This document shows positions 1,718 to 37,829 of a stretch of DNA of 64,000 nt, one piece after another; position 1 is the stretch's first letter, and each line of letters starts with the position of its first letter. This DNA is from Actinobacteria bacterium HGW-Actinobacteria-1 (GTDB lineage: Bacteria > Actinomycetota > Coriobacteriia > Anaerosomatales > Anaerosomataceae): assembly GCA_002841355.1 (NCBI GenBank), contig PHFB01000007.1, forward strand, positions 62,001 through 126,000, given 5' to 3'. The position numbers and the translations under genes are program-made. The notes beneath the pieces were generated by a model. That model ran no database searches and was not told the DNA's origin. It was given only the letters and a program-made list of their open reading frames with translations.

Positions 1718-4700
1718 ATGGGAGAGATTCCAGTTCCAAGCGGCGCCAGCCGTCACTACTGGGTGCGTCGAGAGAAACTCGAAAGGGCGTTTCTTCAGAC
1801 TCGGCCGGATGTTGTGTTCGTCGTGAGCCCAGGGGGCTATGGCAAGACGGTGTTGGCTCGGCAGTTGGCGGCATCAGCAACCGGGGAGGTTCTCTGGTTG
1901 TCGATGGGAGGCGGGTCGCCATCCTCCGCAGACCTGCCGTCCGCGCTGTCACTGGCGATCACGACAGATCGTCAGTCGGGACGCGGGGCCAGCATCGCGA
2001 GTGCTGTTATGGCTGACAACGGGTGGGATCGCCTCGATGAGGCTCTAGATGGCCTGGAGCAGCGTCCTGCGGTCTTGGTCATAGACGGGCTCGACGCACT
2101 CAGCTCCAGTGAGTTCATATACGACCTTCTAGACCGATGTCGGCGAGCGTTCTCGCATACACTCCAAATCATCGTGACGTGTCGCACGCGGGATGCGGAC
2201 GATGCGCCACGATCATCGGACGTCTCACAGTGGTGTATCGATCGCACACTACTCGAGTTTGATCTTCAAGAGACCATTGAACTGGCGACACATCTTCTAC
2301 AACGAGAGGTGACTGCGCACGAAGCCCAGGTTCTGGCGACGTCCTCAGCCGGTCAACCAGCGCTGCTGCTGCTCATACTCAGGAACATCACACTGAGCGG
2401 ACGTGACGTCGACGCAGTTCTCTCATCGGCCACGGGAGATGTTGCGGCACACCTGCGCTCTCTCGTGTCGCGCGATACTCCGTGGCCTGTGCTGTCCGTG
2501 CTTCGAGTGGCCGCCATGCTCAGGCACGGGAACTTGCGCCAATTGACTGAGATGGCGGGTGTTGCTGTAGAAGCCGTCTACCAGGCAGTGGATCTGATGC
2601 CGCTGCTTAGGGTTACAGGAGCAAAGGGCACGCTGCGAGGCTTCGAGATGCATGACCTTGCTTGTGAAGTTCTCTGTGGCCTGTTGGTGAGTCGCGAGTC
2701 TTGTCATACGCAGGCGCTCTCGCAGGTGGTACATGAGCTTGCAGGGCGTCGAGAATACGACTGGATGTTTGATGTCCTCGTTGCGTCCGGTGACGTCGAC
2801 ATGATGCTTGAATGGATCGAACTCCTTGGCCTGTGCATGATTGAGGAAGCACGACTTGATTTGCTCGAGTCGGTTCTGGACCAAGTGCCCGCAATAGTAC
2901 AAGCGGGAAGTCCGCGCCTGCTGCTGATTGCAGCTCTCCTTCACAGGTCCAAAGGTCGAACATCCCAAGCGTTCACACTTGCATCGGCCGCCCGACGTGC
3001 GGCCGAGGTCGCATCGGACGAGCGGGGTGCGATTGAATGTCTCATGGTTGAAATCAGACTTCACTGGGACGTCGCCGACTACGAGACCATCCTGCCTCGC
3101 ATGGGTGAAGCACTGGCGCGCGCACAGGGCAGAGGCGACAACGACACCACTGCCATGCTTCTCGGCTATATGGCATCTGCATACGCACAACTGGGAGACG
3201 TCAAACGGGGGCGCGAGTACGCTCTCAAGTACCGAGAAGCGTCGAGGCTGCCGGGTGTGCAATCAGCCACCAAGGTGCAGGCGCTTCAACCCGTTCTGTT
3301 CGTGTTAGGTTTTGTCGCTGGAGATATCGCCCTAGCTGCCAGTATGTTGCGCGAGGCGAGGGCGGAGGCCAAGTATCCGCGAGCACTAGCGCTGCAGTGT
3401 GACGCGAATCTTGCGTCGCTTGTGCTGGAGATGGGTCGTGTGACATCGGCAATGCGGATGATCAGTTCTGTTGGGGTTCATCTGCAGGCGTCGGGTTTCA
3501 GCATTCTGAGCGACGCCTGCTCGGGTACTGAGGGTGCGATTCGGGCCGCGATGGGAGACAAGCCCGAGGCCGAGAGTCTTCTGCGAGCTGCCGTAGAGGA
3601 CGCACTGTGTCCGGACGACCGGCTTTCGGTGGAGTGCAATCGGCTGTACCGCTCGGCGATTCGACGCGCAACTGGGTCCGTCGACGAGGCGCTCTCGGAT
3701 TCCGAAGATGCGCATGCGGCCTTCTCAGATGACGGCAGCGGTCTGCCCGTCATGCGTTGTCTTGCCAAAATCGAGATGGCTGCGAATCTACTGGCTCTCG
3801 GGGACTTGCGGCGGGCCGAGGAGCTGGCGTCGGTAGCTCATCGGGACGCCAGCCTGTGGACGGCCGCGTATCACCTCCTCCGTGCCGACATGGTCCTGGC
3901 GGAGATCGAGCGGCAGCAGGGAGCGTTCGACGAAGCTATCGCCCGAATCGCTCAGCATCGCGAGTACATCCTGACGGAGAGCGCCAACTGGCAGATTGCG
4001 ATGTACATCCGGGCCTTCCCGGGCCTGCTCGGCGTGTTCGCCAAGGCGGTGGGTGTTGATGCCTTGCCGTCTCACTTGCTCCGCATGATTCTGCACGACT
4101 ACGCGCGGCCGGCGCTTGACGCGTGCCATGACGAACTGCCAACTGCGGACATGGAGCGGCTCGCGGCGCGTCTTCTCGGCAAGAGGGCCGCAGCCGTGTT
4201 CATGCGCGAACGTGCCAGTGGCCCCAAGGCCGTCGTTCGGTTGTTCGGCGGCATGCAGGTAGTAACGCCTACGGGCGCCGTCACCGACAAGGACTGGCGC
4301 AAGCGGAAAGCTCGACTGCTCTTTGCGCTTCTGGTGCTCCGGCGCGGCCAAGACATGCCTCGTGAGCAGATCTTCGAGCACTTCTGGCCCGAGATGGACG
4401 AGGAGCGAGCGAAGAGCAACTTCTACGTGACGTGGAGCATCATGAAGCGCGCGCTGGCCGCAGGCACCGGCGGCAAAGGGCCGTGTCCATACGTCGAGCA
4501 TGTCGGTGGCGTGTGTCGCGTAGTCCCCGCATTGATCTCGTCGGACTTCGCAGAATTCGAAGACGCCCTTACGGCGATGCGCAAGGCCGACCGCGCCGGT
4601 GATGCGTCGCTTGCATTGGCGGCAGCGGAGCGAATCGTCGAACAGTATCGCGGCGAGCTGCTACCAGGCGAGCTCTACGATGACTGGCTCGGCCCGATAC

Positions 4701-5017
4701 GCGATCGGTGTCGGCATGACTACGGCGATGCGATGCTGCGCGCCTCGCAGCTAACGTACGAAGCAGGCGATTCCGAGAAGGCACTCCACCTCGTTCGTGC
4801 AGGACTGGGGCAGGATCCCTGGCGCGAGGACCTGTACCAAGCTGCGTTGCGCTATCTCATTCACACCGGTCAGCGCAGCGGCGCTATCGAGACATACGTC
4901 GCATGCAAGAGTAAGCTTGCCGAGGACCTGGGCCTTGATCCTTCGACCGAGACGCAGCGGCTGTACGACCAGATTCTGGCCATGGAGGACCCGCCCGGCG
5001 CGCCTGCGCCAGGGTAG
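1718..5017 (+). CDS. SARP/MalT-like transcriptional regulator with P-loop ATPase, TPR and BTAD domains
   Basis: A 1099-residue regulator. Near residues 30-45 there is a Walker A-type loop (S-P-G-G-Y-G-K-T) in a STAND/MalT-like NTPase, with V-L-V-I-D-G-L-D as a Walker B. The centre (about 400-800) is helical repeats resembling TPRs. From about residue 830 an OmpR-like winged helix (V-V-R-L-F-G-G-M-Q-V, then W-R-K-R-K-A-R-L-L-F-A-L-L) is followed by a bacterial transcriptional activation (BTAD) domain to the end. This order, ATPase-TPR-wHTH-BTAD, is that of large SARP-family activators, except that the DNA-binding domain is C-terminal. A G-run precedes the ATG. Ligand and targets are unknown; the neighbours suggest signalling. 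Confidence 0.82.
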   Translation: MGEIPVPSGASRHYWVRREKLERAFLQTRPDVVFVVSPGGYGKTVLARQLAASATGEVLWLSMGGGSPSSADLPSALSLAITTDRQSGRGASIASAVMADNGWDRLDEALDGLEQRPAVLVIDGLDALSSSEFIYDLLDRCRRAFSHTLQIIVTCRTRDADDAPRSSDVSQWCIDRTLLEFDLQETIELATHLLQREVTAHEAQVLATSSAGQPALLLLILRNITLSGRDVDAVLSSATGDVAAHLRSLVSRDTPWPVLSVLRVAAMLRHGNLRQLTEMAGVAVEAVYQAVDLMPLLRVTGAKGTLRGFEMHDLACEVLCGLLVSRESCHTQALSQVVHELAGRREYDWMFDVLVASGDVDMMLEWIELLGLCMIEEARLDLLESVLDQVPAIVQAGSPRLLLIAALLHRSKGRTSQAFTLASAARRAAEVASDERGAIECLMVEIRLHWDVADYETILPRMGEALARAQGRGDNDTTAMLLGYMASAYAQLGDVKRGREYALKYREASRLPGVQSATKVQALQPVLFVLGFVAGDIALAASMLREARAEAKYPRALALQCDANLASLVLEMGRVTSAMRMISSVGVHLQASGFSILSDACSGTEGAIRAAMGDKPEAESLLRAAVEDALCPDDRLSVECNRLYRSAIRRATGSVDEALSDSEDAHAAFSDDGSGLPVMRCLAKIEMAANLLALGDLRRAEELASVAHRDASLWTAAYHLLRADMVLAEIERQQGAFDEAIARIAQHREYILTESANWQIAMYIRAFPGLLGVFAKAVGVDALPSHLLRMILHDYARPALDACHDELPTADMERLAARLLGKRAAAVFMRERASGPKAVVRLFGGMQVVTPTGAVTDKDWRKRKARLLFALLVLRRGQDMPREQIFEHFWPEMDEERAKSNFYVTWSIMKRALAAGTGGKGPCPYVEHVGGVCRVVPALISSDFAEFEDALTAMRKADRAGDASLALAAAERIVEQYRGELLPGELYDDWLGPIRDRCRHDYGDAMLRASQLTYEAGDSEKALHLVRAGLGQDPWREDLYQAALRYLIHTGQRSGAIETYVACKSKLAEDLGLDPSTETQRLYDQILAMEDPPGAPAPG

Positions 5018-23955: not shown

Positions 23956-25239
23956 CTATGCGTGCGTGGGCTTCGTCCCCTTGAGCGGCATGGCCGCAAC
24001 CACGAGGTCGATCACCTGCCACACCTGGAGTCCGAGTTCGTGGATCTCGTTAAGCTCCTCGATCTGCAGGCGGCAGTTCTCACACGGACAGGCCAACACA
24101 CTGGCACCGCTCGCCTTCAGCTGTTCGACCTTCTTGATGCCGGATGCCAGTCGCACATCCTTGAACTCCTCCATCGCGACAATGCCGCCACCGCCACCGC
24201 AGCACCATTGCTCGGCACGGTTGGGGGTGAGATCGACGAAATTGTCCGTCACTGCTTTCACGATGTCCCGCGGCTCCTCGAACTTGCCGCCGTTGCGGCC
24301 GAGCTGGCACGGATCGTGATAGGTGACCTTGCCCTCGATGAGACCCTTGTCCACGGTGATGCGACCGGCCTTGATGTACTGGTCGACCTTCTCGAGGATG
24401 TGGCTGATCTTGAAGGGCATCGGTTCCTTTGACCAGGCCTCGTAGAAGAACTCGGCGACGCGGTACGCATGACCGCACTCCGGTACGACGATCTCCTTGA
24501 CGCCCAGTCGTTTCGCCTCATCGATATAGCGCTTGGTGATGAGCCGCGCCTTCTCGACATCGCCGTAGAAGAAGCCGTAGTTGGCCGCTTCGAACATCGA
24601 GATGGTCCAGTTCTCGCCAGCCTCCTCAAAGATGACGGCAGCAGGACGGATCGAGTGCGCCCCGGCGAGCGCCACATACAGGATGTCGGCACCCTCCTTG
24701 TTCACCGGAACCCGGGAGTTCGGGTTGCCGGTGATCGCACGCACTTCCTCCTGGATGTCCTCGAAGCCGCTGACCATGACGTCGTTGAACATCTCGGCAT
24801 TGTCGCCCTTGAAGATCGCGGCGTCAGCCAGCTGACCGAGCATCTCGTTGCCCTTGCCCGCGGCGATGAGGATCGCTTTCGCCACCGAGAGGATCCAGGC
24901 GGTGTCGATCGAGAACGGGCAGTAGTACATGCAGCGACGGCAGCCGGTGCATGCGTACGTCGAGTCGTAGAGCTCGTCGAGCAGGTTCTCGTCGGGGTCG
25001 CGCGCCTCGTAGAGAGCGGGCACGAACTCGCCGGTCTTGGTGAAGTACTTCTTGTAGATCTGACGAATCAGCTCTGCGCGCCGGGCGGGGAGGTACTTGA
25101 AGTCCCCGGTTCCCACGTACTGATGGCACGCGTCCTTGCAGATCGCGCAGCGCGCGCAGATGTCCATGTACTGCTTGAGCTGTCGGTTCATCTTCTTATC
25201 GATGACCCCCGTGAGGGTCGTGAGCTGCGTTGAGTCCAT
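23956..25239 (-). CDS. HdrD/DsrK-like iron-sulfur oxidoreductase
   Basis: 427 residues, cytoplasmic or membrane-associated. Two ferredoxin-type [4Fe-4S] sites are visible: Cys28-31-34-38 and Cys97-100-103-107. The C-terminus holds one complete CCG domain (D-P-C-Q-L-G, then W-C-C-G-G-G-G-G, then C-P-C-E-N-C), which in heterodisulfide reductases binds a non-cubane cluster at the disulfide site. A first CCG domain is degenerate, with only P-E-C-G-H left. This is the layout of HdrD, DsrK, TmcB and HmeD. It is the last gene of a minus-strand operon directly after a NarI/DsrM-like cytochrome, with GAGGAG before the ATG. It probably passes electrons between quinone and a thiol or persulfide. Confidence 0.87.
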   Translation of the reverse strand: MDSTQLTTLTGVIDKKMNRQLKQYMDICARCAICKDACHQYVGTGDFKYLPARRAELIRQIYKKYFTKTGEFVPALYEARDPDENLLDELYDSTYACTGCRRCMYYCPFSIDTAWILSVAKAILIAAGKGNEMLGQLADAAIFKGDNAEMFNDVMVSGFEDIQEEVRAITGNPNSRVPVNKEGADILYVALAGAHSIRPAAVIFEEAGENWTISMFEAANYGFFYGDVEKARLITKRYIDEAKRLGVKEIVVPECGHAYRVAEFFYEAWSKEPMPFKISHILEKVDQYIKAGRITVDKGLIEGKVTYHDPCQLGRNGGKFEEPRDIVKAVTDNFVDLTPNRAEQWCCGGGGGIVAMEEFKDVRLASGIKKVEQLKASGASVLACPCENCRLQIEELNEIHELGLQVWQVIDLVVAAMPLKGTKPTHA

Positions 25240-25241
25240 GC

Positions 25242-25967
25242 TTACTCACTCCTCACAAGGTTGGACGAGAAGGCGCCGATCGCGTGCACGAGCTTGCTGA
25301 ACGGGAAGTACATGAGCAGCAGGTCCGTGAAGAGCATGTGCGTTCCAAGCGAGACTCCCACGTTGCTGGCGAGCAGCTCGGCCGGAATCTCCGGCTTGAA
25401 CGTCATGAGGCTCAGGAACCACTCGCGATAGGTGGCTGCGTGTACCACGCCGCCGTATACGAAGCGCATGTGGTCGCCCATCGCAACGACGCCGAGGAGC
25501 AAGAAGAGCAGTAGGTAGTCTTCCGGCACAGAGAGGCTCTTGTACGGGCCAAACGTCCTGCGGACGATCCAGAAGAGCACGCCGACGAGCATGAGGATTC
25601 CGGCGATACTGCCGGACCATGCCGCGAAGGTGTTCATACCGGCCTCGCCGAGCCATTCCGGCAGGAACGGGAACTCGTGGATCAAGCGCAGATGCCCGAC
25701 GAACGCGCCAAGCGCGGCGACGTGGAACGCCATCGCGAAGATCCACATCGTCGGCTCGATCTTGGCCGATTGGGGGGCGATGAACGTATCGGCAAGCAGC
25801 TTGCCGAAGCGGCCTGCGCCGCTCTTCGGCTTCGGGAACATCCCGAGACGGACGGGCGACTTGGGTGTCGTGGCCCACTGGTAGATGCGCCACGCCATGC
25901 CGCCGAAGAACACGATCGCCGTGAGGTAGATGCCCCAGACCGATGTTATCCAGAGGTAGGTTTCCAT
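25242..25967 (-). CDS. NarI/DsrM-like membrane cytochrome b subunit
   Basis: 241 residues with about five membrane helices. Four histidines, His82, His92, His210 and His228, have spacings of 10 and 18 residues, the same as the four heme b ligands of nitrate reductase NarI (known from E. coli). This strongly supports two hemes. The start chosen gives M-E-T-Y-L-W-I; a longer frame runs into tusA and was rejected. It lies between tusA and the HdrD-like gene and probably anchors that protein and oxidises or reduces membrane quinones, as DsrM does for DsrK. Confidence 0.88.
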   Translation of the reverse strand: METYLWITSVWGIYLTAIVFFGGMAWRIYQWATTPKSPVRLGMFPKPKSGAGRFGKLLADTFIAPQSAKIEPTMWIFAMAFHVAALGAFVGHLRLIHEFPFLPEWLGEAGMNTFAAWSGSIAGILMLVGVLFWIVRRTFGPYKSLSVPEDYLLLFLLLGVVAMGDHMRFVYGGVVHAATYREWFLSLMTFKPEIPAELLASNVGVSLGTHMLFTDLLLMYFPFSKLVHAIGAFSSNLVRSE

Positions 25968-25977
25968 TGGCTCCACG

Positions 25978-26220
25978 CTACTTGACGCGCTTGACCAGGA
26001 AGACGAACTCGCTGCCTTCCTTGGCGGCCTGCAGCACTTCGTTCCCGGTGCTTTTCGCCCACGCGGGGATGTCTGCCATGGCACCCGGGTCGGTCGCGAC
26101 GGCGCGAATGACGCCACCCACCGGCACGTTGCCGATGTTCTGGCTGACCTTCACCATCGGGAGGGGGCAGAGGAGGCCCTTGAGGTCGAGTTCGAGGTCG
26201 ATCTTGGTCTCGTCAGACAT
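25978..26220 (-). CDS. TusA family sulfur carrier protein
   Basis: 80 residues. The C-P-x-P motif (G-L-L-C-P-L-P-M-V-K, Cys18) marks the sulfurtransferase TusA/YeeD/SirA family, which carries a persulfide on that cysteine. AAAGGAG precedes the ATG. It is the second of two likely sulfur-handling genes (after DsrE2) in an operon that ends with membrane and iron-sulfur redox subunits, so it may deliver or accept sulfane sulfur for that complex. Confidence 0.92.
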   Translation of the reverse strand: MSDETKIDLELDLKGLLCPLPMVKVSQNIGNVPVGGVIRAVATDPGAMADIPAWAKSTGNEVLQAAKEGSEFVFLVKRVK

Positions 26221-26289
26221 GAGTGCTCCTTTAACGGGTCGTGCCGAGGCACGACCGGCTGCTGATACGTGCTGGTTTCGTTTGCGGGA

Positions 26290-26778
26290 CTAGATGAACA
26301 GCTGGATATCGGCGTCCTGCGCCTTGAGCAGGAAGAAGCCCACGCCGACCGGCTCCTTGACACCGTCGATGAAGCTCTCCTGCGGCATCTCCATGACGTC
26401 CATCGACATCTGGCAGCCGTACATGTTCACTCCCAGGTCGATCGCGAGGTCGCGGAGTTCGCTGAGCTTGCTCACGTTGTGATTACCCATCATCTTGCCG
26501 AACATCCAGCGACCCATACCGCCGAAGCTGAACTTGGACGGATTGGCCTTCATGATGTCGCCGCCGTACATGAGACCGAGCATGCGACCGAACAAGGTCT
26601 TGCCCGTGCTCACATTCTTCTTGATCGCGCGCAGGCCCCAGAACGTGAAGAACATGGTGACTTCCATGCCCATCGCGGCTGCGCCCGTTGCGATGATGAA
26701 CGCGCCGAACAACTTGTCCATATCGCCGCTCATCACCACCATTGCCAGGCTCTTCTGGCGGGGCTCCTCTTCCGGCAT
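26290..26778 (-). CDS. DsrE2-like peroxiredoxin/sulfur-transfer family protein
   Basis: 162 residues of the DsrE/DsrF/DrsH-like family. The fold is recognisable from S-L-A-M-V-V-M-S-G-D-M-D-K near residue 10, the hydrophobic G-M-E-V-T-M-F-F-T-F-W-G-L stretch, and the late V-N-M-Y-G-C-Q-M-S-M-D segment. The only cysteine is Cys122, the position used for persulfide binding in relatives. Such proteins often sit next to TusA and transfer sulfane sulfur. AGGAGG-like sequence precedes the ATG. It follows the ArsR gene on the same strand. Confidence 0.9.
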   Translation of the reverse strand: MPEEEPRQKSLAMVVMSGDMDKLFGAFIIATGAAAMGMEVTMFFTFWGLRAIKKNVSTGKTLFGRMLGLMYGGDIMKANPSKFSFGGMGRWMFGKMMGNHNVSKLSELRDLAIDLGVNMYGCQMSMDVMEMPQESFIDGVKEPVGVGFFLLKAQDADIQLFI

Positions 26779-26835
26779 CTAGCGTTCCTCCTTTGAGACT
26801 CAGGGTATGTTCACGGCCCGAGGACCGTTCCGGCC

Positions 26836-27168
26836 TTAGTCGTGCTCGCCCGGAGCGGCCGCCGTGCGGCTCTGCTCCTCGAGCGATTCGCGCATGACCT
26901 CGGTGATGAGGTCGAAGGCGACGAGGATCTTGGGATTCGAGAGGGTGTAGTAGATGTTCGCGCCTGATCGGCGCGAGCGGACAACGCCACGGCTGCGCAT
27001 GATCGAGAGATGCTGGGAGAGCGTGGCCTGGGGGATGCCGGTCCGAGCTGCGATCTCGCTCACCGACACCTCGCCTTCGCGAAGACTGTCCAGAATCATC
27101 TGCCGCTTGGGATTCGCAAGCGTCTTGCAGACCTCTGAATGAAGACAGTAGAAGCTTTCGTCGTCCAC
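26836..27168 (-). CDS. ArsR family transcriptional regulator
   Basis: 110-residue winged-helix repressor (L-A-N-P-K-R-Q-M-I-L-D-S-L, then V-S-E-I-A, then T-L-S-Q-H-L-S-I-M-R, then wing R-R-S-G-A-N-I-Y-Y). Two cysteines, Cys8 and Cys14, lie in the N-terminal helix and are the only ones in the protein, so a thiol-based or metal sensor is plausible. Being the first gene of a sulfur-transfer operon, a persulfide or redox signal is the likely input. Upstream, at 27190-27211, an AT-rich repeated motif stands out and is a candidate operator. No known-family effector can be assigned from sequence alone. Confidence 0.9.
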   Translation of the reverse strand: MDDESFYCLHSEVCKTLANPKRQMILDSLREGEVSVSEIAARTGIPQATLSQHLSIMRSRGVVRSRRSGANIYYTLSNPKILVAFDLITEVMRESLEEQSRTAAAPGEHD

Positions 27169-27425: not shown

Positions 27426-28172
27426 GTGGCCCTCGAGGGTAACCTCAAGGACTTCTCACTTGCGGACATGTTCCGTCTGCTTGCGTCCGGTCGGAAGACC
27501 GGGACGCTGCATCTCGAGTTGCCCGATGCGCAAGGGAAGGTCTGCTTCAAGAAGGGTCGCGTCTTCTTCGCGTCCAGCAACTGGCACCGGGAGTCGCTCG
27601 GCCGACGCATCGTCAAGGCCGGCGTGATCTCGGAGAAGCAGCTTCGCCAGGCACTCGGCCTTCAGAAGATCCAGAAGAAGGAAAAGGCGGATCGCCGCCT
27701 CGGGCAGATTCTGGTCGATGAGGGATACCTCGATGCGAAGGTCCTCGAGACCTTCATCCAGGAGCAGATCAACGACACGCTCTTCGATCTCTTCCGCTGG
27801 GAAGACGGTCAGCTCCGCTTCGAAGGCGATGAGACGTGCGAGGAAGAGGACATCGGTATCTCGGTGTCTGTCGAGAACATCATCATGGAGTCATCTCGGC
27901 GCCTCGAGCTTTGGGGACGGATTCGACAGAAGATTCCATCGCTGGAGACGGAATTCGTCATGGCCTCCGCGCCGGGCGACAAGTCGATGGAGATTCACCT
28001 CAAGCCGAAGGAATGGATGTTGCTGTGTTACCTGCACGGCGGGCGTTCGGTGAAGGAACTCGTCGGTCTCACCGGCTACAACGATTTCGAGACTGCACGG
28101 ATTCTGTACGGCATGTACTCGGCCGGGCTTATCGAACGAATCGGAGACGACGCTGACGGCGTCGTCGACTGA
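27426..28172 (+). CDS. DUF4388 (PATAN domain) protein, first gene of chemosensory operon
   Basis: 248 residues, GTG start with GGGAGG upstream. Residues ~3-55 are the DUF4388/PATAN fold (L-K-D-F-S-L-A-D-M-F-R-L-L, G-T-L-H-L-E-L, G-K-V-C-F-K-K-G-R-V-F-F-A). Between ~58 and 120 are two similar helical motifs: S-L-G-R-R-I-V-K-A-G-V-I-S, and R-R-L-G-Q-I-L-V-D-E-G-Y-L followed by a helix ending in Q-E-Q. They resemble the paired motifs of MshEN c-di-GMP-binding domains. The C-terminus has a small winged-helix-like region (L-K-P-K-E-W-M-L-L-C-Y-L). PATAN proteins elsewhere connect chemosensory signalling to type IV pilus motors. It is probably an output or adaptor of this operon. Confidence 0.8.
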   Translation: MALEGNLKDFSLADMFRLLASGRKTGTLHLELPDAQGKVCFKKGRVFFASSNWHRESLGRRIVKAGVISEKQLRQALGLQKIQKKEKADRRLGQILVDEGYLDAKVLETFIQEQINDTLFDLFRWEDGQLRFEGDETCEEEDIGISVSVENIIMESSRRLELWGRIRQKIPSLETEFVMASAPGDKSMEIHLKPKEWMLLCYLHGGRSVKELVGLTGYNDFETARILYGMYSAGLIERIGDDADGVVD

Positions 28173-28183
28173 GGTCGTGACCG

Positions 28184-29692
28184 GTGAACGGTGAAGGTCT
28201 CGCGAAAGACTTGACGATGGATGAGTTCGCGCGTTTCCGCGACTTCATCCACTCCTCGTCGGGCATCTTCCTTGAAGATGGCAAACTCGACTCGCTGCGG
28301 ATCTCGCTTGTGACCCGCGCGACGCGGCTCGGATACCCGGCGTTCGACGACTACTACCGACTGCTGGTGCAAGACGACCAGGAGTTCAATGAGCTCATGA
28401 ACCTCGTCACAATCAATGAGACGAGCTTCTTCCGCTTCCCACAGCAGTTCGACGCGCTGAGAAACAAGATCCTCCCCGAGATCATGGCGGGGAAGCCGCA
28501 ATCCAACCGCAACATAAGGATCTGGTCGGCAGGATGCTCCACTGGCGAGGAGCCATACTCGCTCGGCATGACGTGCATCGACGCCGGCATCCAGGGGCTC
28601 GGATGGAAGCCGCAGATCCTTGGCACCGACGTCTCCACCAAGGCGCTTTCGGCGGCTAAGAAAGGCGTGTACGGCAAGCGGGCGATGCTCAACGTCTCCA
28701 AGGAGGTCGTCGCGCGGCACTTCGAGCCCGAGAACGAACTCTTCGCGGTAGCGCCTCACGTGCGTAGCATCGTGGATTTCGGCTACCACAACCTCATCAA
28801 GGAGCCGTATCCGCTCTCGCTCATGGGGAACTGGGACATCATCTTCTGCCGAAACGTCACCATCTACTTCAAGATGGAATCGACCAAGCGCGTCGTCTCG
28901 AACTTCTACAACAGCCTGAATGAGGGTGGCTACCTTTTCATCGGCCACTCGGAGACACTGTCCTCCGTAAGCGATGTGTTCGAGGCCGTCGAGGTCGACG
29001 GTGTCTTCCTGTACCGGAAGCCACGTGCGAAGCGGCTGTTCGCCGCGACTCGCCCGGAGCCGAGAGCACCGATCGTCGTGCCGTCGGTGTCTCCGGTTGC
29101 GAAGACCGAGCCCCGCGCCCCTCGCAAGCCGGTCGTCATTCCGGTACCCGCGCCGAAGCCCCCCGAATGCGGCGACGGCGAGGATCTTATCGTTCAGGCT
29201 CGGCAGTGTCTGGAGCAGGGGCATCCTGAACGAGTCCTGGACCTCGTGGAGCGCATTCTCGCCGATGATCCCGGCAATGCCGAGGCGCATCTTCTCTCGG
29301 CGTACGTGCACGCGGATTCTGGCGACTACGTGCAGGCGCTCGAGGCGTGCCACCGGGCGCTGGCGATCAACCCGCTGCTTCCGGTTGCACGCTACATACT
29401 CGGCATCATCTATCAGCGTCAGGGTGACCCCGTTCGGGCGATCAGCGAACTGAAGAAGACCATCTATATCGACGCCGACTTCGCCCTCGCGCACCTGAAT
29501 CTCGCCAACATCTACAAGGCGCAGCGCAAGTGGGAATCCGCCGCTCGCGAGTACGAGAACGCGCTGCGTGCGCTCTACAAGAGCCCGGAGGGTTCATGGA
29601 CTGAGTTCCTTGGCGGATTCAAGGCCGATCTGCTTGCAAAGACCTGCGAACGGAGTCTGCTAGAGTGTCGGAAGGCGATGGGAGCCGCCTGA
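28184..29692 (+). CDS. cheR: CheR methyltransferase with TPR repeats
   Basis: 502 residues. The first ~275 are a chemotaxis receptor methyltransferase: an N-terminal helical domain, then the SAM-binding motif I-W-S-A-G-C-S-T-G-E-E-P-Y-S near residue 110, and N-W-D-I-I-F-C-R-N-V later. A Pro-rich linker (about 290-325) joins a C-terminal TPR domain (A-H-L-L-S-A-Y-V-H-A, then A-R-Y-I-L-G-I-I-Y-Q, A-H-L-N-L-A-N-I-Y). CheR-TPR fusions occur in alternative chemosensory systems such as Frz. It methylates receptor glutamates for adaptation, opposing CheB at the operon's end. The GTG start gives the shortest plausible N-terminus. Confidence 0.94.
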   Translation: MNGEGLAKDLTMDEFARFRDFIHSSSGIFLEDGKLDSLRISLVTRATRLGYPAFDDYYRLLVQDDQEFNELMNLVTINETSFFRFPQQFDALRNKILPEIMAGKPQSNRNIRIWSAGCSTGEEPYSLGMTCIDAGIQGLGWKPQILGTDVSTKALSAAKKGVYGKRAMLNVSKEVVARHFEPENELFAVAPHVRSIVDFGYHNLIKEPYPLSLMGNWDIIFCRNVTIYFKMESTKRVVSNFYNSLNEGGYLFIGHSETLSSVSDVFEAVEVDGVFLYRKPRAKRLFAATRPEPRAPIVVPSVSPVAKTEPRAPRKPVVIPVPAPKPPECGDGEDLIVQARQCLEQGHPERVLDLVERILADDPGNAEAHLLSAYVHADSGDYVQALEACHRALAINPLLPVARYILGIIYQRQGDPVRAISELKKTIYIDADFALAHLNLANIYKAQRKWESAAREYENALRALYKSPEGSWTEFLGGFKADLLAKTCERSLLECRKAMGAA

Positions 29693-29767
29693 TGAAGCGA
29701 ACCCTAAAGCAAACACGTGCGTGGGGCGATACATCACGGGAGAGCAGTGTCGAGGAGGGAGCTGGGA

Positions 29768-30145
29768 ATGCCTGCACGCATACTCGCGGTTGACGATAGC
29801 CCGACGATCCTTGAGATGATCAAGGCTATTCTCGAGGCCGGAGGCTACGACGTCATCACCGCTGCGGACGGCGCGGAAGCGCTGGAGACCGCGCGCAGCG
29901 AGAAGCCCGACCTGATCCTGCTCGACGTGATGCTGCCCAAGCTCGACGGGTATCGCGTCTGCCGCCTGCTGAAGTTCGACCAGAACTACAAGAACATCCC
30001 GATCATCATGCTGACTGCCAAGACCGAAGAGCAGTCGATGGCTACCGGTATCCGTACCGGCGCCAATCAGTACCTCACGAAGCCCGTAGAACCCGACACC
30101 CTTCTCTCGGCTGTTGCCGAGGAACTCGCGAAGGTGCAGGGCTAG
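29768..30145 (+). CDS. CheY-like single-domain response regulator
   Basis: 125 residues, one receiver domain. Phosphoacceptor Asp53 (L-L-D-V-M-L-P-K), the acidic pair at 9-10, Thr83 and Lys105 (T-K-P-V) are all present, so it should be phosphorylated by the CheA of this operon. GAGGAGGG precedes the ATG. It lies between CheR and the PilB-like pseudo-ATPase, which would be a natural partner. No output domain is attached. It resembles PilG/PilH-type regulators as much as flagellar CheY. Confidence 0.93.
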   Translation: MPARILAVDDSPTILEMIKAILEAGGYDVITAADGAEALETARSEKPDLILLDVMLPKLDGYRVCRLLKFDQNYKNIPIIMLTAKTEEQSMATGIRTGANQYLTKPVEPDTLLSAVAEELAKVQG

Positions 30146-30151
30146 GCACAT

Positions 30152-32056
30152 ATGGACGACACGAACGCAATCTCCAGTCGAGTGCTCGATAGCCTGGTAG
30201 GGGCGGGGTTGCTCACTGTTGACCAGCTTGCAACGGTAAGCGGGCAGGCGGCGACACGCGGCGTGAGTGCCGGAGTCGTGCTGGCAGAGCGTGGTCTCGT
30301 CTCGGCGGCCGATGTCGCTTCTGTGCTCGAACATGAGATGGGTGTGCCGAGAGTCGACCTTTCCAGCTACGCGCCGGAGGATGCAGCGCTTGCGATCGTG
30401 CCCGGCGAGGTGGCGCGGGCGCGCCGTGTGCTGCCGCTCTTCGATATCGAGGGCATGCTGACGGTCGCCATCGGCGATCCGATGGACGTGTTCATGCTTG
30501 ATGACCTGGCTGCCGACCTTGGCATGGAGTTGGAGCCTGTTCTCACCGAGACGGCCGCGGTCGCGGCCGCTATCGAGACGTACTACGGTGCCGGGACAGC
30601 CGCAACGCCTGAAGCCGAGCCTGACGAAGCATTTGAGATGCCTTCGCCGGTCGCCGCTGACGAACTCCCGCCGCCTCCGCCAGTGGCAGAGGTCGAGGAT
30701 GCACCGCTCTTCGCGGCCTCGGACTTCTTCGACGAGCACGCCGACGAAGCCGTTGAGACGCCGTCTGTACCGATCGCACCCGCTGCGGAGATCGCGCCCG
30801 AGGACGTTGCACCGCTGCCCCCGGTCGAGACCATCGAGCAGATGGCCGAGGCGGCACCGGTGAGTGGCCCGCGTTCGATCGACCTCGACGTACTCGCGGT
30901 GGCCGACAGCCGGAAGATCGCGGTCCTCGTGACCGAGATTCTTGAAAGCGCCGTAGCTCGCGAGGCGAGCATGATCCATCTGCTGCCGTACAAGGACGAT
31001 TTCTTCCTTGTGTTCCGCGTGAAGGGCGGCCTCGAGAAGGTAGCGAGCGCACCGCTGTCGCTTCAGGGCGCGCTTGTGGACGGCCTCAAGAGCTTCGCGA
31101 AGATGTCGGGCGTGCAATCGTCGCGCCCGGCGCTCTCGCGCGTTCGCACCCGGGTCGCCGACAAGGACCTGGTGGTGACGGTTTCGGCCGTTCCGACGAT
31201 CGCCGGACAGCGGCTCGTCATCTCGCTTGCCCCGCACAAGCCGCACCCGCGCGGTCTTGGCGACCTTGGCATGTCTGAGGCCGAGGTCCGCGCGCTGCAT
31301 GCGATGGTCGAGCGGGGCCGCGGCATCCTTCTCGTGTGCGCACCCGTGGCTGCTGGCGCGAGCACGACGTACTACGCGCTCATGGCGCACGCTGCATCCA
31401 TCGGCAAGACCGTCTACTCGGTCGAGCGCTCGGTAGAGTACGAGATTCCCGCCGTGGCGCAGGTCATGGTGAACACAGCGTCGCCTGTCCCTGCTGCAAA
31501 CTACCTCGCAGCAGGGCTCAAGCAGGATACGGACGTCGTCGCCATCGACGGGCTTCGCACCGTCGAGGACGTGCACCTTGCTGTCGAGGCTGCGGGTCTC
31601 GGCAAGCTGGTCATCGCCACGTTCCCGGCGTCGGACATCGCTTCCGGCGTGCGTCGTATGCTCGATCTTGGCGTGGAGCCCCACAGCCTTGCCTCGGCCC
31701 TGACGTTGGGCGTCGCTCAGCGGCTCGTGCGCATCAACTGCCCGAACTGCACGGTAGAGGCGCCGAGCGATGCGCTGGCTCGGATTCCGGGCGTGACAGC
31801 GGACGTCGTGAACAAGACCGGCACGGGATGCCCGAATTGCGGCAAGAGCGGTTTCCGCGGCGCCGTCGGCATCTTCGAGGTGCTGCCGTTCACCGAGCCC
31901 GTGCGGGCGAAGGTCGCGACGGGTTCCACAGGTGCGGAGATTGCCGCTGCCGCGGATGCGGCCGGCATGCGTCCACTTTCGGCCTCAGGCCTGGCACGCG
32001 TACGTGCCGGTGCAGTGAGCGCCGATGAGCTTGATAGGGTCCTGCGGTTCTCCTAG
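30152..32056 (+). CDS. PilB/GspE-like pseudo-ATPase with MshEN-type N-domain
   Basis: 634 residues in the order of a type IV pilus extension ATPase but catalytically broken. Residues ~10-145 resemble a GspE_N/MshEN domain, and 146-240 are an acidic, Pro-rich linker. From ~245 the N2 and C domains follow, with an intact tetracysteine zinc site (C-P-N-C at 530-533 and 560-563). All nucleotide motifs are changed. Walker A is A-P-V-A-A-G-A-S-T-T (397-406; the Lys is Ala403). The Asp box E-D-P is E-R-S. The Walker B G-E-I-R is D-G-L-R, and the His box S-T-L-H-T is A-T-F-P-A. It cannot hydrolyse ATP in the usual way. It probably acts as a scaffold or signal receiver in the chemosensory operon. Confidence 0.85.
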   Translation: MDDTNAISSRVLDSLVGAGLLTVDQLATVSGQAATRGVSAGVVLAERGLVSAADVASVLEHEMGVPRVDLSSYAPEDAALAIVPGEVARARRVLPLFDIEGMLTVAIGDPMDVFMLDDLAADLGMELEPVLTETAAVAAAIETYYGAGTAATPEAEPDEAFEMPSPVAADELPPPPPVAEVEDAPLFAASDFFDEHADEAVETPSVPIAPAAEIAPEDVAPLPPVETIEQMAEAAPVSGPRSIDLDVLAVADSRKIAVLVTEILESAVAREASMIHLLPYKDDFFLVFRVKGGLEKVASAPLSLQGALVDGLKSFAKMSGVQSSRPALSRVRTRVADKDLVVTVSAVPTIAGQRLVISLAPHKPHPRGLGDLGMSEAEVRALHAMVERGRGILLVCAPVAAGASTTYYALMAHAASIGKTVYSVERSVEYEIPAVAQVMVNTASPVPAANYLAAGLKQDTDVVAIDGLRTVEDVHLAVEAAGLGKLVIATFPASDIASGVRRMLDLGVEPHSLASALTLGVAQRLVRINCPNCTVEAPSDALARIPGVTADVVNKTGTGCPNCGKSGFRGAVGIFEVLPFTEPVRAKVATGSTGAEIAAAADAAGMRPLSASGLARVRAGAVSADELDRVLRFS

Positions 32057-32062
32057 ATTCGG

Positions 32063-32623
32063 ATGGTGAGTGTGGCCCGCAAAACGAAGACAGAGGATAC
32101 GTCGCCTGCTCCGAGCGAGTCGAATGAGTCTGTGCCGGTGACGGCCCCGGGTTCGATCGCGTTCGAGATTCCCCAGGTGGTCGTCTTTCGCCTCGCCGAG
32201 CAACTGCACGCGTTGCCGATCGAGTGCGTTCAGGAGATCCAGCAGATCGTGGAGTTCACACCGGTTCCGGGTGGCTCGGCGGCGCTTGTCGGCATGATCG
32301 ACCTTCGTGGCAGCGTCGTGCCCGCAATCGATCTTCGCGCCCTGCTGGGAATGCCGCTGCTGGACTACTCGCTCGATACGCCGATGATCTTCTTCAAGAC
32401 CCACGGTCGTCTTGTCGCATTGCTGGTCGATGAGGTAGAGGACGTCGTCGACCTTCCCGACGACTGCATGCAACCGCCGTCGAACCTCTACGATCTTGCG
32501 GACCGCATGATCGGTATCTGCAAGCTCGACCAGGGGCTGACCATCGTTCTAGATCCCGACCGGCTCGTGCCTGATGCCGCGCTGTCGAGCGGGGACCCGT
32601 TCGGTGGGGAGGGATTGCTGTGA
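32063..32623 (+). CDS. cheW: CheW-like adaptor (first copy)
   Basis: 186 residues. After a ~30-residue polar N-terminus, a CheW SH3-like fold follows (Q-V-V-V-F-R-L-A-E-Q-L-H-A-L-P-I, then V-G-M-I-D-L-R-G-S-V-V-P-A-I-D-L-R, then V-A-L-L-V-D-E-V-E-D-V-V). CheW links receptors to CheA. It follows the pseudo-ATPase by seven bases and overlaps the next CheW by four. Having two different CheW copies in one operon suggests distinct interactions, e.g. one with the receptor and one with another partner. Confidence 0.92.
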   Translation: MVSVARKTKTEDTSPAPSESNESVPVTAPGSIAFEIPQVVVFRLAEQLHALPIECVQEIQQIVEFTPVPGGSAALVGMIDLRGSVVPAIDLRALLGMPLLDYSLDTPMIFFKTHGRLVALLVDEVEDVVDLPDDCMQPPSNLYDLADRMIGICKLDQGLTIVLDPDRLVPDAALSSGDPFGGEGLL

Positions 32624-33174
32624 GCAGCGAGTCACCGATTATCCGCGAGTCCATCGCACAGCAGTCGCTCGACATACTTCGAACGCGCGCCGAATCACTG
32701 GCGCTTGCCGAGGATGTCGAGACCACCGTCGAGACGATGGGCCTCCTGCTCTTCCGGCTTGGCGAGGAGTGGTATGCGGTGCCAATAGCGGGTGTGCGCG
32801 AGATCATCAACGACTTCGTGCTCACGCCGATTCCGCGTGTCCCGGAATTCATCCGCGGCGTCATGAACGTGCGGGGCGAGATCGTTTCGGTCACCGACAT
32901 CGCGCTTCTGATGCGCATCGCATCGGACGGGCACCGTTTCGAGCGAGAGCTGCCCGCTGCGATCATCGTGCGCACCGATCTTTGTGTCAGCGCGCTTGTG
33001 GTCGACGAGATCGGCGACATCGTCGAGGTCGCCCGCGACGCGGTGGAGCCGCCGCTTGCGACGCTCGACCGATCCCAGGTCGAGTTCATCAGCGGCTCGG
33101 TGTACCTGGAAGGCAAGCTTATCGGCATCGTGAATCTTGACCGGGTGCTGGAACCGATCGGAGAGAACTCCTGA
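32620..33174 (+). CDS. cheW: CheW-like adaptor (second copy)
   Basis: 184 residues, GTG start overlapping the previous stop. CheW motifs are [29 protein letters not shown] and [14 protein letters not shown]. It has an N-terminal extension of ~45 residues with a helix. It is more like classical CheW at the receptor-binding face (N-V-R-G-E-I) than the first copy. It lies directly before the receptor gene. Confidence 0.93.
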
Positions 33175-33196
33175 TGGTGCGAGAGGGGACCATGAC

Positions 33197-34423
33197 ATGC
33201 TCACGGGACTGATCAAGAAGGTACGCGGTTCGTTCCTCTGGAAGTACTCGCTCGTCAACCTCGGGTTGATCGTTGTAGTGAACGCCATCCAGCTTGCCGT
33301 TGCGTGGTTCATGTTCGGTGACGAGCTGGCGGGCGAGCCGGAATTGTTCACCGATCTGGCGATTGTGCTGGGTGTCTTCATGGCGACGGGTGTGATCTTC
33401 ATCTACATCTACGCCCAAGTTGGCAAGAGATTCACGGCACCCCTTGGCCATGTCGTTACAAGCGTGAAGGCGGCGTGCGAAGGCGAGATCGGCCACAAGG
33501 TTGACGTCAATTCGGAAGACGAGTTCGGCGTACTGGCCCGCTCGTACAATCAGATGCTCGACCTCATCGTGTATCTCATCACACAGACCCAGGAGTCGTC
33601 GAACCGGCTGTCGGGTGCATCGTCCGAGATCCTCTCCGCTACCGAGCAGCAGGCTTCGGGTGCTGCCGAGCAGGCCGCGTCGATCAGCGAAACCACCGCA
33701 ACAATGGAGGAACTCGCATCGACGTACCGCCAGATCGCCGAGAACGCGAACCAGGTAGTCCACATGGCCGAGGCATCGCTCGGCAACGCTGAGAGCGGCC
33801 AGCAGGCGGTTGCGAACACGCTCGACGCGATGGAGCAGATCAAGACCCGCGCACAGTCCTCGGCGAACAAGATCCTGCAGTTGGGCGAGCGTAGCCAGCA
33901 AATCGCTCAGGTCCTGGCGATCATCAACAATATCGCCGACCAGACGAAGATCCTCGCGCTCAACGCGGCTATCGAAGCGGCGCGCGCCGGCGAGGCCGGC
34001 AAGGGTTTCTCGGTCGTTGCTGTTGAGATTCGCAAGCTCGCCGAGTCGGTCGTTGACTCCACCGGCGAGATCGAGACGATCATGACCGAGATCCAGACCG
34101 CCGCAAACGACCTGGTCATCTCTACCGAGCAGGAACTCAAGCAGGTCAACAGCGGCGTCGAGCTTGCGGGTGTCACCGGCGATAGCCTGGAGCACATCCT
34201 CGACACCATCGAGCAGACCACGGTAGCTGCCAAGGAGATCTCGGCTGCGACGCAGCAGCAGAAGAGCGCCACGGACCAGGTCGTCAAGGCCATGCGAGAG
34301 GTTGCCTCGGTTGCGCAGCAGACTGCCGCCGGCAGCAAACAGGTCGCATCTGCGGCCGAGCAGCTCGCGGCGATCGCGCGCGAGTCCAGCCATGTAGGCG
34401 CCGCATTCCGTATCGTCAGCTAG
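33197..34423 (+). CDS. Methyl-accepting chemotaxis protein lacking a sensor domain
   Basis: 408 residues. Two membrane helices (about 17-40 and 53-73) are separated by only ~12 residues, so there is no periplasmic ligand-binding domain. A HAMP domain follows (~75-130), then a long coiled-coil signalling domain with the conserved hairpin tip ([21 protein letters not shown] near residue 255). The cytoplasmic helices contain Q/E-rich stretches suitable for methylation by the adjacent CheR. Input may come from the membrane itself, from a partner protein, or from the cytoplasm. PilJ-like receptors of type IV pilus systems are an analogy, although PilJ has a larger periplasmic part. Confidence 0.93.
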
Positions 34424-34454: not shown

Positions 34455-36749
34455 ATGGTCGAGTTCGACCGGTCGGCGTTCATAAAGAAGTTCCAAGAGG
34501 AGGCGACGGAGTATCTCCAGCGCCTCAACGAGGGCGTCATCACGCTTGAGGCCGAGCCAGAGAACCGCGAGTTGATAGATCAGATGCTGCGCGATGCGCA
34601 CACGCTGAAGGGCTCGTCGCGCATGGTCGGTCTCATCGAGATATCCGATGTGGCGCATCGGCTCGAGGACATCATGGTGAAGGTCCGCGACGGCGACATG
34701 CGCTACGTTCCCGAAATGTCGGACGTGTTCTTCGAGGCGCTCGATACCATCGTGTTCCTCTCGGACAGCGCCGGCACGGACGTGAGCGAACAGACCGATA
34801 TCCCTGCACTGCTCGAGCGGCTTGCCGTGGTCGCAGGGAACGGCAAGAGCGATGACGAGGCAGAGGACGCGCCTGCGGAGCCGGAGGAAGAGAAGTCACC
34901 GGCACCCACGAAGCAGCCGGTCGGCGCAGAGAAGAAGCCGGCCAACAAGAGCGTGAAGAAGTCCTCGCCCAAGAAGGCCGTGCACGATGAAGAGACCCTG
35001 CAGACGCGGGTCCAGCACACGGTTCGCGTCCGGACCGAGCAGGTTGATCGGCTGTTGAACTTGGTCAGCGAAGTGGTAATCGCGCAGATCAAGGACGAGC
35101 AGCGCTCGCGAGACCTCCGTGGCCTTCAGGCGCTCATGAACGAGACGAACCAGCTCTGGAGCCGCGTTCGGACGTCGGCGGCGAACCTGTCGACACACGA
35201 CTCGGGGGGCTTCAACGAAGAGCTCGAGATGTTGGACGAACTGCTGGCCGACCAGCGCAAGCGCCTTGCATCGATCGTGAAGGTCGACGCGGAGGACGCA
35301 TCGCGGGCCTCGACGGTCGTCTCGGACTTGCAGGAACAGAGCATGGCGCTGCGCATGCTGCCGGTATCGACTGTGTTCAACACGTTCCCGCGTTCGGTGC
35401 GCGACCTCGCGCATCAGTTCAACAAGGACGTGGAGCTGGAGATAGAGGGCGGCGACACAGAGCTCGACAAGAAGGTACTCGAGGAGATAAACGACCCGCT
35501 CATCCATATCATGCGCAATGCGGTCGATCACGGCATCGAGAGCCCTGCCGAGCGCGAGGCCGCGGGCAAGCCCGCCAAAGGCACGATTCGCCTCGCCGCC
35601 AAGCAGGAGGGCGACCATATCGTCATAGAGATCGCCGATGACGGCGCCGGCATCGACCCGGACAAGGTTCGGGCGGCCGCCGTTCGCAAGGGCTATGTCT
35701 CGCAGACCGAAGCGAAGTCCATGTCGGACCGAGAAGCGAGCTACCTCATCTTTGAGGCCGGGTTCTCGACAAGCGCCATCATCACCGAGATCTCGGGCAG
35801 AGGCGTCGGCATGGACGTCGTCCGGGAGTTCATCGTCGAGAAGCTCAAGGGCTCTCTCGATGTGACGTCAGTCCTCGGGCAGGGAACGACGTTCCGTCTC
35901 ACGATTCCGCTCACGCTGGCAATCATCCGTGCGCTGCTGGTGAGCACCAGCGGTCGTACCTACGCGATTCCCACCGCTTCGATCGAGGAGACGCTGCGCA
36001 TAGACCCCGCCGAGGTCATCAAGGTCGAGGGCCGAGAAGTCATCCGGCGCCAGCGCCGCACGATCCCGATCGTGCACCTGCGCGACGTGCTCGGTCTCGA
36101 GTCCGGAGAAACCAGCGGGCGCAAGCTTCCCGTCGTGACGGTCGGATTCTCCGGTCACCGCATCGGATTCCTGGTCGATTCGTTCGTGGGTGAGCAGCAG
36201 ATCGTGATCAAGACGCTCGGCACGCACCTGGTACGCGTCGACAATGTCGCCGGTGTGACCATTCTCGGCGCAGGCGAGGTCGTCCCGATCCTGAACGTCC
36301 CGGATCTGATGCACCACGCACGGCAGCTTGCCGGTATGCGCACGCGTCAGGCCGCGGCTGCAAAGAAGGCCGAGTCCGGGCCGAAGCGCATCCTCATCTG
36401 CGAGGACTCCTTCACGACGCGCGAGCTGGAGCGCTCCATCTTCGAGGCTGCGGGCTACGATGTGGAGACCGCGACAGACGGGGCGCTCGGCCTGGCAAAA
36501 CTGCGCGAGGGGCTCAAGGTCGACGCTGTCGTGACAGACGTCCAGATGCCGAATATGACCGGCTTCGAGCTCACGCGCGCGATCAAGTCCGACTCGAGAC
36601 TCAAGGTCATCCCGGTCATCATCGTCACCTCTCTGGAGCGCGAAGAAGAGAAGGCCGAGGGTATCGAGGCCGGTGCAGATGCGTACATCACCAAGTCGGT
36701 CTTCAACCAAGACACGCTCATCGACACGGTCGAGCGCCTGATCAGGTAG
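34455..36749 (+). CDS. cheA: CheA histidine kinase with C-terminal receiver domain
   Basis: 764 residues. An Hpt domain carries phosphoacceptor His49 (D-A-H-T-L-K-G-S-S). A charged linker (residues ~130-180) is Lys/Glu/Pro-rich. Dimerisation and HATPase domains follow (N-A-V-D-H-G-I-E, D-D-G-A-G-I-D, G-R-G-V-G-M-D-V), then a CheW-like regulatory domain, and a receiver domain from about residue 640 (I-L-I-C-E-D-S, then V-V-T-D-V-Q-M-P). CheA-receiver hybrids occur in Frz, Pil-Chp and Pix-type systems; the receiver often acts as a phosphate sink. It lacks an obvious P2 domain. It should phosphorylate the single-domain regulator and CheB of the operon. Confidence 0.96.
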   Translation: MVEFDRSAFIKKFQEEATEYLQRLNEGVITLEAEPENRELIDQMLRDAHTLKGSSRMVGLIEISDVAHRLEDIMVKVRDGDMRYVPEMSDVFFEALDTIVFLSDSAGTDVSEQTDIPALLERLAVVAGNGKSDDEAEDAPAEPEEEKSPAPTKQPVGAEKKPANKSVKKSSPKKAVHDEETLQTRVQHTVRVRTEQVDRLLNLVSEVVIAQIKDEQRSRDLRGLQALMNETNQLWSRVRTSAANLSTHDSGGFNEELEMLDELLADQRKRLASIVKVDAEDASRASTVVSDLQEQSMALRMLPVSTVFNTFPRSVRDLAHQFNKDVELEIEGGDTELDKKVLEEINDPLIHIMRNAVDHGIESPAEREAAGKPAKGTIRLAAKQEGDHIVIEIADDGAGIDPDKVRAAAVRKGYVSQTEAKSMSDREASYLIFEAGFSTSAIITEISGRGVGMDVVREFIVEKLKGSLDVTSVLGQGTTFRLTIPLTLAIIRALLVSTSGRTYAIPTASIEETLRIDPAEVIKVEGREVIRRQRRTIPIVHLRDVLGLESGETSGRKLPVVTVGFSGHRIGFLVDSFVGEQQIVIKTLGTHLVRVDNVAGVTILGAGEVVPILNVPDLMHHARQLAGMRTRQAAAAKKAESGPKRILICEDSFTTRELERSIFEAAGYDVETATDGALGLAKLREGLKVDAVVTDVQMPNMTGFELTRAIKSDSRLKVIPVIIVTSLEREEEKAEGIEAGADAYITKSVFNQDTLIDTVERLIR

Positions 36750-36779: not shown

Positions 36780-37829
36780 GTGGCGGCACCAGCGCCTATA
36801 CGGGTCGTGATCGTTGACGACTCGCTTGTTGCCAGAGAGATGCTGGCCCAGATTCTTGCGACCGATCCCGCGATCGAGGTCGTCGGTCAGGCCGTTGACG
36901 GTCAGGACGGCGTCGATACCGTTGCGCGCCTCCGACCTGACCTTGTCACGATGGACATCCACATGCCGCGGATGGATGGCCTCGAGGCGACCGAACGCAT
37001 AATGGCGTACACGCCGACGCCGATCCTGGTCGTCTCTTCGTCGGTTCATGGCGAGGGCATGGGCCGTGCATTCGACGCGCTGTCCGCCGGTGCGCTGGAA
37101 GTGATCAAGAAGCCGGAGCCGCGTGACTGGGCCGACCTGGAGCGGATCGGCCGCGAGGTCATCCGCAAGGTGAAGATTCTGGCTCGCGTGAAGGTCATCA
37201 CCCACATCAGAGGGAAGCGGGGAGCGCCCGATCCGCACCAGAAGGTACCCGCTGTGCCTACATCAGGCGGTCATACGATCGTCGCGATCGGCTCCTCGAC
37301 TGGCGGGCCTTCAGCGCTCATGAGTGTGCTGAAGCCGCTGCCACGGACGTTCCCGCTACCCATCGTGATCGCACAACACATCGCGGACGGCTTCATCCCC
37401 GGCCTGGTGAACTGGCTTGACGGAAGCTGTACCGTCTCGGTGAAGGCGGCCGAGGATGGCATGACCATACAGCCCGGCGTCGCCTACTTCGCGCCCACAG
37501 GCCGCAACCTCAAGGTCGATGGCTCCCGTCTTGTCTTCTCGGCTCCCGAGAAGGGCCAGCTGTACATCCCCTCGGCGGACACGCTGCTTTCCTCGGTGGC
37601 GCGCACGCACCACGGTCGCGGCATAGGCGTGCTCCTCACCGGTATGGGCGCCGACGGCGCGTCCGGGCTCAAAGCGATGCGCGTTGCGGGCTCGCCCACG
37701 ATCGCGCAGGACGAAGAGACCTCGACGGTGTTCGGAATGCCGCGAGCCGCGATCGAGCTGGGGGCTGCTTCCAGCGTGCTTCCGGTGCAGGACATCGCAG
37801 CCGAGATTCTTCGCATGGTCGGTCGCTAG
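36780..37829 (+). CDS. cheB: Protein-glutamate methylesterase CheB
   Basis: 349 residues, GTG start. An N-terminal receiver domain (Asp59 in V-T-M-D-I-H-M-P) controls a C-terminal methylesterase. Its catalytic triad is visible: Ser in I-G-S-S-T-G-G-P, His in A-Q-H-I-A-D-G-F and Asp in G-M-G-A-D-G-A. It removes methyl groups from the receptor and completes the adaptation pair with CheR. It is the last gene of the operon; 24 bases later the murI promoter and gene begin. Confidence 0.96.
   Translation: MAAPAPIRVVIVDDSLVAREMLAQILATDPAIEVVGQAVDGQDGVDTVARLRPDLVTMDIHMPRMDGLEATERIMAYTPTPILVVSSSVHGEGMGRAFDALSAGALEVIKKPEPRDWADLERIGREVIRKVKILARVKVITHIRGKRGAPDPHQKVPAVPTSGGHTIVAIGSSTGGPSALMSVLKPLPRTFPLPIVIAQHIADGFIPGLVNWLDGSCTVSVKAAEDGMTIQPGVAYFAPTGRNLKVDGSRLVFSAPEKGQLYIPSADTLLSSVARTHHGRGIGVLLTGMGADGASGLKAMRVAGSPTIAQDEETSTVFGMPRAAIELGAASSVLPVQDIAAEILRMVGR

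Follow-up and report, generated by a model that had tools for sequence, protein, structure and literature searches.

The window analysed here, a 64,000-nucleotide stretch of DNA from Actinobacteria bacterium HGW-Actinobacteria-1, carries a chemosensory (Che) operon that includes the gene for a pseudo-ATPase of the PilB/GspE family, hereafter psPilB (Table 1). Pfam searches placed this gene, as originally predicted, between a single-domain response regulator (REC) upstream and two CheW genes downstream. The order DUF4388-CheR-REC-psPilB-CheW-CheW-MCP-CheA(-CheB) was found in each of the 66 loci, to the extent that contigs cover them (these represent about 50 distinct genomes, some counted twice), so that homologues always occur together with DUF4388 and CheA-REC, a point that had been left for checking. 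The operon contains a Pil-Chp-like set (CheA-REC, REC, two CheW, CheR, CheB and MCP), in which the MCP receptor has two transmembrane helices, a short loop and, by hydropathy, no sizeable periplasmic sensor.

Elsewhere in the window, the minus strand upstream of the operon (23956-27168) encodes proteins judged from sequence to be TusA-like, DsrE-like, ArsR-like, Hdr-like and NarI-like, a sulfur-transfer-like set that is conserved beside the Che operon within the same family. Positions 1718-5017 encode a large ATPase of STAND-like type, which also carries a BTAD transcriptional activator domain.

Table 1. Features of the chemosensory operon and of psPilB, in window coordinates.
Feature	Position	Strand	Extent	Basis or state
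DUF4388 (PATAN) protein	27426..28172	+		Pfam DUF4388, 113 bits
DUF4388 helical insert, MshE-type c-di-GMP motif	about 27597-27767	+	residues 58-114	NF053729
CheR methyltransferase with TPR repeats	28184..29692	+		Pfam
Single-domain response regulator (REC)	29717..30145 (start probably ATG 29762)	+		Pfam Response_reg, 108 bits
psPilB, PilB/GspE-family pseudo-ATPase	30152..32056	+	634 aa	Pfam, motifs, AlphaFold model
psPilB MshEN domain	30152..30598	+	residues 1-149	motif I Gly to Leu or Ile; motif II Arg-Leu lost
psPilB former N2-domain ERRxPQDGR stretch	31115..31141	+	residues 322-330	lost
psPilB former Walker A, APVAAGAST	31340..31366	+	residues 397-405	Lys403 replaced
psPilB former Asp box, YSVERSVEY	31415..31441	+	residues 422-430	Asp lost, Glu425 invariant
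psPilB former Walker B, DTDVVAIDGLRT	31526..31561	+	residues 459-470	Gly466 to Asp (39/39), Glu467 lost
psPilB former His box	31604..31636	+	residues 485-495	both His lost
psPilB zinc-site cysteines (CxxC...CxxC)	31739..31840	+	C530, C533, C560, C563	invariant
CheW 1	32063..32623	+		Pfam
CheW 2	32620..33174	+		Pfam
HAMP-MCP receptor	33137..34423 (true start probably near 33197)	+		Pfam, hydropathy
CheA with C-terminal receiver	34455..36749	+		Pfam
CheB	36780..37829	+		Pfam

Sequence and fold place psPilB nearest to PilB, PilF and GspE. Pfam matched T2SSE (PF00437) at residues 252-629 (2e-60), with a score of 204.9 bits against a gathering cut-off of 24.9 that puts the protein in this superfamily, and MshEN at residues 63-149 (3e-15). 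The closest solved structure by sequence was PilB of Geobacter (4e-72), and the score under the PilB equivalog model TIGR02538 was below its cut-off (290.6 against 675.65 bits). An AlphaFold model (mean pLDDT 84) compared by VIA-align gave a Z score of 31 to PilB/GspE (5tsh/1p9w) and of 12.6 to MshE-N; the least certain part of its folded core is the P-loop, with pLDDT <50 at residues 400-402. The N2/C fold with the tetracysteine zinc site of PilB motors is present. Pfam, fold scores and the four invariant cysteines agree with the earlier claim that the PilB-type layout (MshEN-like domain, N2, C and zinc site) has been kept, and the predicted structure, aligned to PilB/GspE, confirmed both the fold and the loss of motifs.

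The intact PilB copies of the same genome served as the reference for these motifs. Between them and psPilB, Walker A changes from GPTGSGKST to APVAAGAST, the Asp box from TAEDPVE to SVERSVE, Walker B from VGEIRD to IDGLRT and the fourth motif compared from TGHLVLSTLHTND to LGKLVIATFPASD. Motifs were read in 49 orthologues plus the window copy, and residue-level alignment covered 39 sequences. Walker A Lys and Walker B Glu occur in 0 of the 50 sequences read and the His-box His is absent from all of them, while the Lys403 site is R, A, S, G or C in the 39 aligned, with Arg, a mild change, in many. The predicted losses of Walker A Lys, Walker B Glu and both His-box histidines thus hold when set against the genome's own intact PilB. 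The predicted replacement of the Asp box stands for its Asp and Pro, lost in all psPilB, but not for its first Glu (E425), which is invariant (39/39). Further losses beyond those first described affect the ERRxPQDGR stretch of N2, other PilB-invariant arginines and the c-di-GMP motifs of MshEN. Because the N2 stretch and several arginines are gone, the trans side of the nucleotide site, located from the family's known ATPase geometry, seems to have been lost as well. Compared with 25 intact PilB sequences, psPilB has kept 54 PilB-conserved sites and lost 50, and it has 48 near-invariant sites specific to itself. From its motifs, psPilB is predicted to have lost catalysis.

Nearly all genomes of the order yielded a psPilB orthologue in our search of relatives; the best-scoring piece of every orthologue exceeded 470 bits, against about 170-200 for ordinary PilB. 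The dN/dS of psPilB, about 0.07-0.11 in pairs drawn from three same-genus genomes and one same-family genome, is similar to that of CheA and CheB, although dS is near or >1 in the wider pairs, which makes those values rough. Conservation within the protein peaks in the dead C-core (column mean 0.84 versus 0.50-0.75 elsewhere, with N2 at 0.75 and MshEN at 0.59-0.72). Homologues with intact motifs were looked for in close relatives and none was found. Signs of decay were confined to a frame break in a single orthologue, that of G023 (L060/L110), a low-coverage metagenome-assembled genome (MAG) in which a contig coverage of 2.9 makes an assembly error likely. The original proposal, that the gene has been selected for a role other than catalysis and is not decaying, is therefore well supported by dN/dS, by the order-wide pattern of losses and by the strong conservation of the dead core; a local pseudogene is ruled out by the losses common to all orthologues together with the low dN/dS.

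In the class sample, psPilB was present in 52 genomes, all from one little-studied order (Anaerosomatales-type Coriobacteriia), and the class search found no orthologues in the other orders. Named records with psPilB belong to Coriobacteriia/Anaerosomatales or to generic Actinobacteria MAGs. A contig scan with peptide patterns that are order-specific, and a poor probe for psPilB outside the phylum, matched only Coriobacteriia-type or Actinomycetota-type MAG records. Genomes without psPilB also have no operon-type CheA, except G036, where a contig ends within the operon; in genus g22 neither was found.

Outside the order, we newly found half-dead copies and live PilB genes adjacent to a REC. 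The half-dead copies lie in the same operon in one other class of the phylum (genomes G518, G562 and G468): they keep the Walker A GKT and the Walker B Glu, have lost the Asp box, the His box and the N2 stretch, and already have Asp at position 466, as in psPilB. Live PilB with all motifs intact directly follows a homologous REC in G510, from the class of G518 and G562 (CheA-x-MCP-CheB-CheR-REC-PilB), and in G306 (a PAS kinase-REC-PilB unit with no adjacent MCP). Genome-wide, the top match of the window REC was the PilB-adjacent REC in G562 (186 bits), G518 (168), G510 (157) and G306 (135), next-best matches in these genomes reaching at most 107 bits; the PilB-adjacent REC of G468 scored 155 bits and was the sole match among those listed. 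In a PilB tree that is unrooted, has no outgroup and sets G518 and G562 on long branches, these two copies group with psPilB at 100/100, and the ordinary PilB of G510 and G306 branch off beside that group. From the REC matches, taken with the live, half-dead and dead copies beside them, it follows that REC and PilB form a long-standing pair, which stayed together while the motor died in steps.

A further link between REC and PilB, by gene fusion, occurs in G348, where a zinc-ribbon-like stretch joins a live PilB to a C-terminal receiver domain (L154:8909-11227). On contig C23 of the window's own genome, about 10 kb separates two large proteins of the REC-GspE-REC type (L004 and L007), one of them intact and the other, L007, with its His box lost and its Asp box altered, perhaps a second pseudo-motor.

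Flagellar output was rejected, FliM being found in 0 of 61 relatives. PilM was found in 53 of the 61, and all psPilB-bearing genomes that are at least 90% complete match PilM except G044; in genus g22, PilM was searched for in G037 and G059, neither of which has a match. The hosts thus have genes for type IV pili but lack a flagellar switch, in keeping with a Pil-Chp-like system, which lends indirect support to the suggested link with a pilus rather than another surface machine, and the Che operon may control pilus motors. A literature search for Anaerosomatales pili found nothing. At C8:74469-82739 of the window's own genome, a second CheA and a CpaF/PilT-like ATPase are separated by about 8 kb; this CheA perhaps belongs to the chemosensory system of another pilus.

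With its ATP site nearly all lost and its gene kept intact in a Che operon, psPilB probably no longer drives pili and now passes signals between them and the sensing system. On a narrow balance of probability, we take it to be a signalling adaptor pseudo-ATPase between the chemosensory array and the type IV pilus machine, which it might bridge physically. Its ancestor would have been a live PilB already paired with the single-domain response regulator; the pair would have joined the CheA operon, after which the motor would have lost catalysis stepwise, presumably first at the Asp box, the His box and the N2 arginines and later at Walker A Lys and Walker B Glu. In the operon as it now stands, CheA would phosphorylate REC, and REC would dock on psPilB together with the DUF4388/PATAN protein carrying the c-di-GMP motif; psPilB, locked in an apo-like shape, would then act at the pilus base, on the platform or on live PilB. 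There are precedents for PilB in signalling: an interaction of the Synechocystis PATAN-REC protein PixE with the pilus motor PilB1 has been reported (PMC7690835), and in M. xanthus the ATPase-dead PilB K327A signals upstream of the Dif complex (PMC5544727). We advance only tentatively the more specific scheme in which the dead motor, as a ring or a monomer, receives signals from REC and from PATAN (c-di-GMP) and gates the live pilus motor. As the fixed partner of psPilB is REC, we lean modestly towards the output side, with REC acting through psPilB.

Signals might instead run inwards, which we consider a lesser possibility: psPilB at the pilus base, always nucleotide-free, would report the state of the pilus to the sensor-less MCP/CheW/CheA, as a dedicated form of the PilB-to-Dif route of M. 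xanthus, in which the ATPase-dead, weakly nucleotide-binding mutant PilB K327A is the form of PilB that actively signals, upstream of Dif MCP/CheW/CheA (PMC5544727). A receptor without a sensor favours an internal input, perhaps psPilB itself, and fits an input role equally well. Such an MCP is common to the psPilB loci and the half-dead loci of G518 and G562, and the MCP of the G510 operon, with its live PilB, has a loop of about 146 residues, but this contrast comes from a single Che operon with a live PilB. Moreover, the oldest fixed partner of the psPilB lineage is REC, an output element, present also in G306 with no MCP adjacent. A parallel with M. xanthus DifA, in which the periplasmic domain may likewise be almost absent, was set aside as unconfirmed from the literature.

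It is doubtful that psPilB is a ligand sensor, in which the altered pocket would hold a nucleotide or some other small ligand unhydrolysed and serve as an allosteric switch. Nucleotide binding may be possible, as P398, G402, S404, E425, D459 and D461 are kept; across the pocket, P398, V399, G402, Y422-E425, D459, D461, A464 and D466 are invariant, and Walker A and B are intact in the half-dead relatives. However, the Lys site is free to vary, the P-loop has the lowest certainty in the folded core and the N2 arginines are lost too.

We think it very improbable that psPilB is a c-di-GMP receptor, which would detect this messenger with its MshEN domain and relay the signal to the array. The MshEN fold is kept, as its Z score to MshE indicates, but both c-di-GMP motifs (PMC5013675), which are defined as two (R/K/L)LGxx... 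motifs (PMC11731258), are broken: the third Gly of motif I is replaced in all 39 aligned sequences, and motif II has no Arg/Lys/Leu-Leu start, a change comparable to that in PilF GSPII-A, which does not bind c-di-GMP (PMC12002112). The NCBIfam c-di-GMP model NF053729 is unmatched by psPilB and matched by the DUF4388 protein (42.4 bits against a cut-off of 38), which also matches PDB 5htl (E 8e-5). In the DUF4388 protein, the motif is assigned from sequence with the backing of the predicted helix pattern, and the helical insert that carries it is nearly invariant across the order; Foldseek with the DUF4388 model gave no significant match, and a literature search for DUF4388 together with pili found nothing. 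If c-di-GMP is part of the pathway, it would enter through the DUF4388 protein. Least credible, and refuted as a general account, is a hitch-hiking pseudogene or passenger gene, for which the lost catalytic residues and one frame-broken copy (L060/L110) might speak, but against which stand purifying selection, order-wide conservation, the dead domain being the best conserved and the low coverage of the contig with the broken copy.

The psPilB system is a real, conserved variant of type IV pilus chemosensory systems, for which we infer the adaptor function set out above. In most systems it is still unclear by what route chemosensory arrays act on the motor of the type IV pilus. To our knowledge, no pseudoenzyme standing between array and pilus has been described in known Pil-Chp systems, and psPilB is undescribed as a natural gene. 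Its operon resembles Pil-Chp (P. aeruginosa PilG-ChpA) and Tax/Pix (Synechocystis PixG/PixE) in its CheA with a C-terminal REC, single-domain REC, two CheW, CheR, CheB, MCP and PATAN protein, and in the absence of flagella; we know of no PilB-like gene in Pil-Chp or Tax/Pix operons. Unlike in those systems, the PATAN protein here has a c-di-GMP motif and no receiver domain: the PATAN-receiver fusion of the PixE/PixG type is absent, DUF4388 standing alone and the receiver being a separate gene. Relative to the MshEN c-di-GMP receptor domain, psPilB has the same fold with both motifs broken, whereas the DUF4388 insert has both motifs, but inside a PATAN fold.

Here a likely signalling function of PilB has been split off from its motor function and placed in a separate gene that always accompanies the response regulator. 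This, and the availability of live, half-dead and dead versions across lineages, make psPilB a clear case of a molecular motor turned pseudoenzyme, and the proposed signalling by nucleotide-free PilB could be tested here without confounding pilus loss. Geobacter PilB and Thermus PilF share with psPilB the MshEN-N2-C-zinc layout (fold Z about 31, 29% identity), but psPilB lacks the Walker A Lys, the Walker B Glu, the His box and the N2 arginine stretch and is encoded in a Che rather than a pil operon. Also close is the PilB-Dif pathway of M. xanthus, where an ATPase-dead form of PilB is likewise tied to an MCP/CheW/CheA complex (PMC5544727); there, however, this PilB is itself a working motor and its dead form was made by mutation in the laboratory, whereas psPilB has its own gene, fixed within the Che operon, and looks like the signalling face of PilB turned into a gene of its own.
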